Assembly (NCBI GenBank): GCA_945888535.1
Contig: CAMDAN010000013.1
Coordinates: 1 to 37,926, forward strand
Length of the DNA: 37,926 nt
Direction: 5' to 3'
Origin: Bordetella parapertussis
GTDB lineage: Bacteria; Pseudomonadota; Gammaproteobacteria; Burkholderiales; Burkholderiaceae_C
The notes under the pieces were generated by a model that was not told the origin of the DNA, ran no database searches, and worked only from the letters and a program-made list of their open reading frames with translations. A program made the position numbers and the translations under genes. How positions within the stretch are numbered: position 1 is the stretch's first letter; each line of letters begins with the position of its first letter. Below are positions 2,867 through 4,545 of the stretch, one piece after another.

Positions 2867-3295
2867 TTAAAAAGGCTTAACTACCACCAGTACAACGATA
2901 GCGGTCAGCATCAAAACCGGAACCTCGTTGAACCATCTAAACCAAACATGGCTGCGGTGCATGGATTGGGACTCAAATTTTCGCAAGATCACCGAGCAGC
3001 TGTGGTGATAGCCAATCACAAGAATCACCAACAGGAATTTGACATCCATCCAACCGATACCCGGCCCTCGCCCGATACCGTAAACCCACCACAACCACAA
3101 ACCCAGGCCCAACGCAGGCAGCGAAAGCAAGGTCGTAAAACGCAAAAGCTTACGCGCCATCAGTAGCAAACGCGCGCGCTCCTCATGCGAGTGTGGCTCC
3201 ACCATTGCCAAGTTCACAAAAATTCTTGGCAAGTAGAACAATCCCGCAAACCAGCTTGCGACGAAAATGATGTGAAAAGCTTTGATCCAGAGCAT
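2867..3295 (-). CDS. hemJ: HemJ-like protoporphyrinogen IX oxidase (CopD/HemJ family membrane protein)
   Basis: A 142-residue protein with four membrane segments, the usual HemJ length. HemJ oxidises protoporphyrinogen IX to protoporphyrin IX, the penultimate step of haem synthesis, at the inner membrane. The N-terminus (HIIFVASWFAGLFYLPRIFV) is the family signature; His8 and Lys86 (WMDVKFLL) match the positions regarded as essential in HemJ proteins. The start at 3295 is chosen because family similarity begins there. An upstream in-frame start at 3373 would place a transcription terminator inside the coding region. It lies back to back with hemB, another haem gene, which supports the call over the copper-related CopD name. 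No good ribosome-binding site is visible. Confidence 0.78.
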   Translation of the reverse strand: MLWIKAFHIIFVASWFAGLFYLPRIFVNLAMVEPHSHEERARLLLMARKLLRFTTLLSLPALGLGLWLWWVYGIGRGPGIGWMDVKFLLVILVIGYHHSCSVILRKFESQSMHRSHVWFRWFNEVPVLMLTAIVVLVVVKPF

Positions 3296-3324: not shown

Positions 3325-3352
3325 AAAAAAAACCCCAGCATAGAGCTGGGGT
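3325..3352 (-). terminator. intrinsic terminator of the candidate sRNA, upstream of hemJ
   Basis: On the minus strand a perfect 7-bp GC-rich stem (arms at 3333-3339 and 3345-3351, 5-nt loop; an extra A-U pair at 3332/3352) is followed by eight T. It stands 30 bp before the hemJ start, so any hemJ transcript from the upstream promoter must read through it. Confidence 0.85.
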
Positions 3353-3422
3353 GGTAAGCCTATTAGCTGTCACACGTCAAGGCCCCGCTCAGGGAGGAAA
3401 AGCGGGAGGCACCAGAGTGCCC
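3325..3422 (-). ncRNA. candidate anti-Shine-Dalgarno small RNA, about 98 nt
   Basis: A probable trans-acting sRNA, predicted from promoter, folding and terminator together. The promoter (3429-3459) puts the first base at about 3422. Reading the minus strand there are three hairpins. The first is GGCAC-TCTG-GTGCC (3408-3421). The second is CCCGCT/AGCGGG (3384-3389 with 3401-3406), whose loop is UUUCCUCCCUG. The third is a terminator, CCCCAGC/GCTGGGG, followed by eight U. A second CCUCCC lies between the first two hairpins. CCUCC in an exposed loop can pair with Shine-Dalgarno sequences. This architecture recalls betaproteobacterial anti-SD sRNAs (the Betaproteobacteria toxic small RNA family, Burkholderia NcS27/NcS35, from memory). 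It could instead be an attenuated 5' leader of hemJ, which starts 30 nt further on. Confidence 0.68.
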
Positions 3423-3428
3423 AAAAAA

Positions 3429-3459
3429 ATTATAGCAGCGGTTTTAACAAAACTGTCAA
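3429..3459 (-). promoter_or_regulatory. strong sigma-70-type promoter driving the candidate sRNA
   Basis: On the minus strand the -35 box is a perfect TTGACA (3454-3459) and the -10 box a perfect TATAAT (3429-3434) with extended TGC in front (3435-3437). The spacer of 19 bp is longer than ideal, but an extended -10 tolerates this. The predicted start is the first G at 3422, seven bases past the -10 box. Confidence 0.75.

Positions 3460-3486: not shown

Positions 3487-4545
<1,059 letters not shown>

Follow-up and report, generated by a model that had tools for sequence, protein, structure and literature searches.

An anti-hemB family small RNA with a conserved anti-Shine-Dalgarno-like loop and a promoter type that differs from that of its relatives

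The window, by which we mean the whole stretch of 37,926 nt analysed here, carries a short minus-strand element between hemB and a hemJ-like gene. It was predicted from sequence to be a small RNA (sRNA) with a loop complementary to Shine-Dalgarno sites and a possible connection to haem or iron. We asked to which family this element belongs, what would transcribe it, and whether its haem neighbours reveal its function.

A small RNA of the anti-hemB family

Minus-strand reading and folding placed the promoter, the hairpins and the terminator of an RNA of about 98 nt (3325–3422, ends predicted) where the original prediction had put them. The −35 box TTGACA (3454–3459) and the extended −10 box TGCTATAAT (3429–3437) are followed by a predicted start at the G at 3422, and the RNA ends after eight U at 3325. 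One qualification concerns the spacer, which at 19 nt is longer than the 16–18 nt covered by our promoter scan, and the promoter is absent from the list produced by that scan. The folding energy of the RNA was −41.5 kcal/mol compared with −31.1 ± 3.05 kcal/mol for 200 shuffled sequences (z −3.41), none of which folded as stably. In the predicted structure hairpin 1 (3407–3422), hairpin 2 (3384–3406) and a weaker hairpin 3 (3358–3383) precede an intrinsic terminator with a U8 tail (3325–3352; terminator hairpin 3352–3332). The loop of hairpin 2, UUCCUCCCU, displays the anticipated CCUCCC (3392–3397), which is the presumed seed. A further CCUCCC reported just before this hairpin is indeed present at 3409–3404; it is not exposed, since in the fold hairpin 1 takes up its first half as 3′ arm and hairpin 2 its second half as 5′ arm.

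The Rfam model RF02837 (anti-hemB) matched positions 3325–3409 of the minus strand over its full length (1–81) with 55.9 bits and an E-value of 1.4e-10 for the whole window, exceeding the gathering threshold of 49.5 bits. It was the sole match at gathering level in the window. The model starts within the 3′ arm of hairpin 1 (at 3409), so that most of this hairpin lies outside it. Together with the fold and the covariation described below, this match supports an sRNA that stands alone, having a promoter and a terminator of its own, and we conclude that the sRNA is real. The suggested membership in the betaproteobacterial toxic small RNA family was ruled out by score, RF02278 reaching 23.3 bits where its cut-off is 50. 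The toxic sRNAs ncS03, ncS05, ncS27 and ncS62 (PMC5688073) resemble the window sRNA in having CU-rich stretches directed against ribosome-binding sites within short hairpin RNAs, but are described with two hairpins, whereas the window sRNA has three plus a terminator. One weak RF02837 match (L184) is itself an RF02278 toxic-sRNA gene (59.9 bits) and contains ACCTCCCTGAGCG, and given this shared element the two families may be related.

The anti-hemB family has been recorded for B. pseudomallei (PMC3521395), and its B. cenocepacia member is ncS04, a 105-nt RNA at 292949–293053. The 3′ end of ncS04 was determined by RACE, the RNA co-purified with Hfq, and the surrounding genes are arranged reverse–forward–reverse (PMC5688073, PMC4603805). 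In the portions of the literature available to us, ncS04 is the only family member for which a discrete Hfq-bound RNA is reported, and what we say of expression, of the 105-nt length and of Hfq binding comes from these B. cenocepacia papers. The window sRNA shares with ncS04 and RF02837 the loop hairpin, the terminator, a similar length (98 nt predicted versus 105 nt) and a divergent hemB gene, which in the window lies at 3532–4545 on the plus strand (NF006762 porphobilinogen synthase, 507 bits). It differs in its sigma-70-type promoter, in having hemJ in the place of engB and in its remodelled third hairpin.

An invariant loop carried by covarying stems

At an E-value of 0.001, RF02837 matched 56 of 61 relatives (55 over the cut-off) and, across the order, 128 of 160 genomes (108 over the cut-off). 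For the window's family (f1) we assembled 19 loci, 17 from the set of relatives and two from the order set, leaving out lower-scoring second copies. The order set contributed those of its listed matches that exceeded the cut-off, plus eight that did not; L046, a match to hemB coding sequence, was left out when promoters, loops and neighbours were counted.

The original prediction had proposed aligning the hemB–hemJ spacers; an alignment of the sRNA (18 sequences, the window plus 17 family loci) revealed covarying stems around an invariant loop. Hairpin 2, CCCGCUUUUCCUCCCUGAGCGGG, was identical in all 18 sequences. Hairpin 1 had changes on both sides at all six of its pairs, and 97.5% of cells could pair. 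The covariation score was 0.222, higher than in any of 500 shuffles (mean 0.123), although sequences may pass this control simply by being related. When at most two sequences per family outside the window's were included (77 in total), hairpin 1 and the terminator still covaried and the loop was kept. After addition of 24 gammaproteobacterial copies (101 rows; see below), the consensus fold retained hairpin 1 and the terminator and lost hairpins 2 and 3. CCTCCC was found in the loop region at 19/19 family loci and 107/115 other loci, establishing the anti-Shine-Dalgarno-like loop as a conserved feature. The paired first CCUCCC, present as CCTCCCGC at 5/19 family and 19/115 other loci, was not conserved.

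Hairpin 3 is remodelled in the window's family, where it carries a GUGUGACAGC element. A motif of the type GTGTGACA[AG]C was present at 17 of the 19 family loci (at one of them as GTGTCACAGC), and a pattern omitting the GTGTCACAGC form was found at none of 116 non-family loci. This GUGUGACA(A/G)C-type element of the Comamonadaceae form may offer an additional site for pairing or binding. Hairpin 2 as in the window, together with the next seven bases, occurred in at least 120 stretches of genome contigs. Of the 80 matches listed, all that carried a genus or family name were from Comamonadaceae, such as Rhodoferax, Curvibacter, Hylemonella and Limnohabitans, except for one labelled Akkermansia and one labelled Burkholderiaceae; many were designated only 'beta proteobacterium' or higher. 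On this basis we assign the window to Comamonadaceae.

Additional copies were also encountered. Several family genomes contain second, mostly lower-scoring RF02837-like copies (L173–L181), in which we saw no sigma-E box by eye, and which kept CCTCCC in most cases, though not all. Clusters of sRNA copies occur beside engB in L198 (two), L204 (two) and L213 (four), and two copies are present in L172; some of these clustered copies have a sigma-E-like box of their own.

Promoter type and gene neighbourhood within and outside the family

Upstream of the sRNA, 93 of 115 non-family loci, representing 37 of 40 other families, carried a box of the form [G/T]GAAC[T/C]..TC[T/A]NA, which we take to be of the sigma-E type. 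The rule demanded [G/T]GAAC[T/C], a spacer of 16–19 nt and a TC[T/A]NA element with no more than one of its four fixed positions wrong, located 40–58 nt before the Rfam core. None of the 19 loci of the window's family carried it (Fisher 4e-12), the window copy having TTGACA/TGCTATAAT instead. All four −10 positions were correct at 72 of the 115 loci, and by the three-of-four rule the box was missing at 22, for example in families f5, f18 and f32. Dinucleotide shuffling (100 rounds of the 115 loci) gave a mean of 0.82 and a maximum of four loci with a box, and a looser rule applied to the reverse strand gave 0/135. The box was first seen in 13 loci and the rule was written afterwards; those loci score 13/13, and the count among the non-family loci obtained later is 80/102. 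The rule was subsequently narrowed a single time, with regard to position, its earlier form giving 97/135. With the start placed seven bases past the box, the RNA up to the model end would have a median length of 105 nt (quartiles 101–108, range 82–119, n=93). This equals the length of ncS04, which we count in favour of a sigma-E start.

For a known family, the presence of a sigma-E-type box outside the window's family and its absence inside are new in the sense that we did not find them in the papers searched. Neither PMC5688073 (RpoE, ErsA, engB or envelope stress) nor PMC3521395 (RpoE, engB or ErsA) mentions the terms given, and PMC4603805 mentions neither RpoE nor ECF factors and reports no sigma-specific motifs. 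The name anti-hemB occurs in a third paper as well, on Bradyrhizobium, whereas the accession RF02837 was found in none of the papers searched. A B. pseudomallei sigma-E paper (PMC4175613) contains none of six terms sought. No link of anti-hemB to sigma-E or engB was found in the literature searched, which consisted mostly of papers accessible without subscription and in part of excerpts; such a negative is no proof of novelty.

Of 30 rpoE loci, 23 had a similar box within 330 nt upstream of the gene, compared with 83 of 1,200 random segments, some of which may contain a true site. A stricter, rpoE-like form of the box was found at 19/30 rpoE loci, in 43/1,200 segments and at 29/135 sRNA loci, indicating that the rpoE and sRNA boxes are not identical in detail. 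RpoE itself (TIGR02939) scored 280–333 bits in all 29 genomes outside the window's family. Within the family, matches of 234–256 bits were obtained in 7 of 11 genomes, two of them just below the cut-off, and a clear TIGR02939 match was missing in the remaining four (G001, G005, G018 and G035, two of which are 99% complete). The box was found at none of six family rpoE-like genes, nor at that of G123. Across 33 genomes the sRNA box and the rpoE box were concordant in 26 (19 with both, 7 with neither; Fisher 0.006), with four genomes having the box only at rpoE and three the reverse; three genomes had no extracted sRNA. The GGAACTT..TCTNA box could be the site of an ECF sigma factor other than RpoE, since such factors are numerous, with up to 12 TIGR02939 matches in one genome. 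The similar box before rpoE and the co-occurrence of the two boxes make this improbable.

The gene neighbourhood differs as well. Long flanks were available for 37 non-family loci, and at 34 of these engB adjoined the sRNA, lying convergently behind it at 30 and upstream on the same strand at four; hemB was divergent at 30 of the 37. In the window there is no engB, and in family genomes such as G002, G008, G034 and G085 it is located on another contig or far off on the same one. At all 19 family loci a hemJ gene instead follows downstream on the same strand, 29–93 nt away. In the window this gene (2867–3295, minus strand) starts 29 nt behind the sRNA end, and its product, with a TIGR00701 score of 96.7 bits below the cut-off of 138.05, likely but not certainly has HemJ function.

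Beyond the order, at class level, 59 of 115 genomes matched RF02837 at an E-value of 0.001, seven over the cut-off, including two of the window's family. We searched for engB in 26 of the 57 matching genomes outside the family and in four genomes with no match. It was found over the cut-off in 23 of the 26, and in 19 of these 23 an RF02837 match lay at engB, the nearest copy being 22–434 nt away; in G210, G231, G288 and G291 the match was elsewhere. The 19 genomes, all from other Gammaproteobacteria, contain 24 engB-linked copies, mostly below the cut-off, of which 22 are on the strand opposite to engB and 17 have a sigma-E box by a slightly looser rule. Of the 19 loci, 16 had a polA match (verified as DNA polymerase I at L187, L190 and L192), and hemB was detected at none. 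A single weak covariance match proves little, but chance would hardly put such matches next to the same gene in 19 of 23 genomes.

The polA–engB slot of enterobacteria houses Spot 42, whose likeness to the sRNA studied here consists in that slot; its model RF00021 gave 13.3 bits against a cut-off of 80, and no similarity was shown. In Pseudomonas aeruginosa the polA–engB intergenic region encodes ErsA, an AlgU/sigma-22-dependent, Hfq-aided sRNA that represses algC and the porin gene oprD (PMC8575079, PMC8395346, PMC5819304), and that has been called a functional orthologue of Spot 42 (PMC8395346). In the family of G300, which PrrF led us to regard as Pseudomonadaceae, we inspected 23 engB loci. 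A pattern search recognized an ErsA-like RNA at 13 of them and visual inspection added L349; sigma-E-like boxes were seen by eye, and polA was detected at 11 of the 23. At the other nine loci (L344, L347, L351, L352, L355, L361–L363 and L365) none was recognized in the 480 nt behind engB, where the gene may have been lost, moved or diverged. The name ErsA is used here on the basis of place, promoter, length and architecture. These RNAs resemble the relatives of the window sRNA in the engB slot, the orientation against engB, the sigma-E-type box and C-rich hairpin loops; unlike those relatives they lack hairpin 2, as judged by eye and by folding. The window copy itself does not share the engB adjacency of ErsA. 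A profile of the anti-hemB-like copies run with nhmmer against 14 loci (13 with an ErsA-like RNA by pattern) gave a best E-value of 0.031, confined to the terminator end, so homology by sequence was not demonstrated. The landing of the matches at engB, together with the boxes, shows that slot and promoter type are shared with ErsA, from which we infer common descent. A Neisseria sigma-E sRNA (PMC3240639), considered as another counterpart, sits at a different locus, by dnaE.

Mode of action and alternative readings

The invariant loop, the covarying stems, the U8 tail and the Hfq binding of ncS04 all point to a base-pairing sRNA that acts on Shine-Dalgarno regions. We propose that it acts in trans, probably with Hfq, its exposed UCCUCCCU loop pairing with purine-rich Shine-Dalgarno regions and so lowering translation; occlusion of ribosome-binding sites has already been proposed for sRNAs with such stretches (PMC5688073). 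Pairing of the loop with an ideal Shine-Dalgarno site was calculated at −20.7 kcal/mol. Stretches exactly complementary to 9 or 10 bases of the loop and lying 3–9 nt before an ATG numbered 7 in eight family genomes and 15 in 12 others, with no recurring gene seen by eye; this pattern is too strict for excluding targets, and one match was antisense to a second sRNA copy.

The position between two genes of haem synthesis had suggested a haem- or iron-responsive regulator of both, a reading to which the long-standing hemB linkage and a modest pairing of the loop with hemJ lend something. The evidence makes it very unlikely. Adjacency to hemB is old and shared with the non-family loci, where engB is the more constant neighbour, and the engB-linked gammaproteobacterial loci mostly have polA, with hemB found at none; the hemJ neighbour was found in the window's family. 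Pairing of the loop with the hemB start region (−6.8 kcal/mol) was no better than chance, 58 of 300 shuffles being as low. With hemJ codons 1–6 the window loop reached −12.5 kcal/mol (10 of 300 shuffles as low). Among the 19 family loci only five showed a hemJ pairing that no more than 5% of shuffles equalled or bettered, so this potential cis target is not conserved. The level of ncS04 did not change significantly in low iron, nor in biofilm, stationary phase, starvation, glucose, osmotic stress or low pH (PMC5688073), leaving a role in low iron unsupported. Less easily dismissed, although still unlikely, is that the element is chiefly a 5′ leader of hemJ in the window's lineage, with the terminator acting as an attenuator and read-through feeding hemJ. 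The constant same-strand position of hemJ would fit, as would its pairing with the loop in the window and the 29 nt left there for a promoter of its own, a distance at which hemJ transcription possibly depends on read-through. Against a leader, the downstream gene outside the family is usually engB on the opposite strand, so the element exists with no such gene behind it; in B. cenocepacia the RNA occurs as a discrete species of 105 nt (PMC5688073), the terminator is intact in the minimum-energy fold, and the hemJ pairing is distinct at few family loci. A leader role could coexist with the sRNA role as a second function in cis.

We consider it probable overall that the window holds the Comamonadaceae form of anti-hemB, a trans-acting sRNA whose gene was ancestrally driven by the envelope-stress factor sigma-E (RpoE) beside engB and is now driven by sigma-70. 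In the ancestral state RpoE would have transcribed a gene beside engB that was the betaproteobacterial counterpart of ErsA, and loci that still have the box would be transcribed by sigma-E today. In the window's lineage control would have passed to sigma-70 as an extended −10 promoter replaced the sigma-E box, with engB elsewhere, hemJ behind the terminator and RpoE diverged or lost; the window copy would then be expressed steadily and constitutively. Counted against this reading are the unchanged ncS04 levels, the 22 of 115 loci with no box, the rarity of the stricter rpoE-like box at the sRNA loci, the seven genomes discordant between sRNA and rpoE, the loss of hairpins 2 and 3 from the 101-row fold, and the few loop complements with no recurring target seen. 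Stresses of 20 min, including SDS, were likewise 'largely' without sRNA induction in B. cenocepacia (PMC5688073).

More broadly, and with confidence falling a little short of even, we suggest that one ancient envelope-stress sRNA gene with an anti-Shine-Dalgarno loop stood beside engB across Beta- and Gammaproteobacteria. Anti-hemB and ErsA would be its descendants, and the Spot 42 slot maybe a third. Its control would have been exchanged while the loop stayed fixed, the exchange for sigma-70 in Comamonadaceae accompanying RpoE divergence or loss and the capture of hemJ.

Anti-hemB, listed since at least 2012 under the name of a neighbour, gains a probable regulator in sigma-E, a locus identity in engB and a conserved working part in its loop, and its function becomes directly testable by genetics. 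The ErsA-type envelope-stress sRNAs are offered a betaproteobacterial counterpart, and the window's lineage would provide a case of a regulatory RNA whose transcriptional control was exchanged and whose presumed seed was kept.
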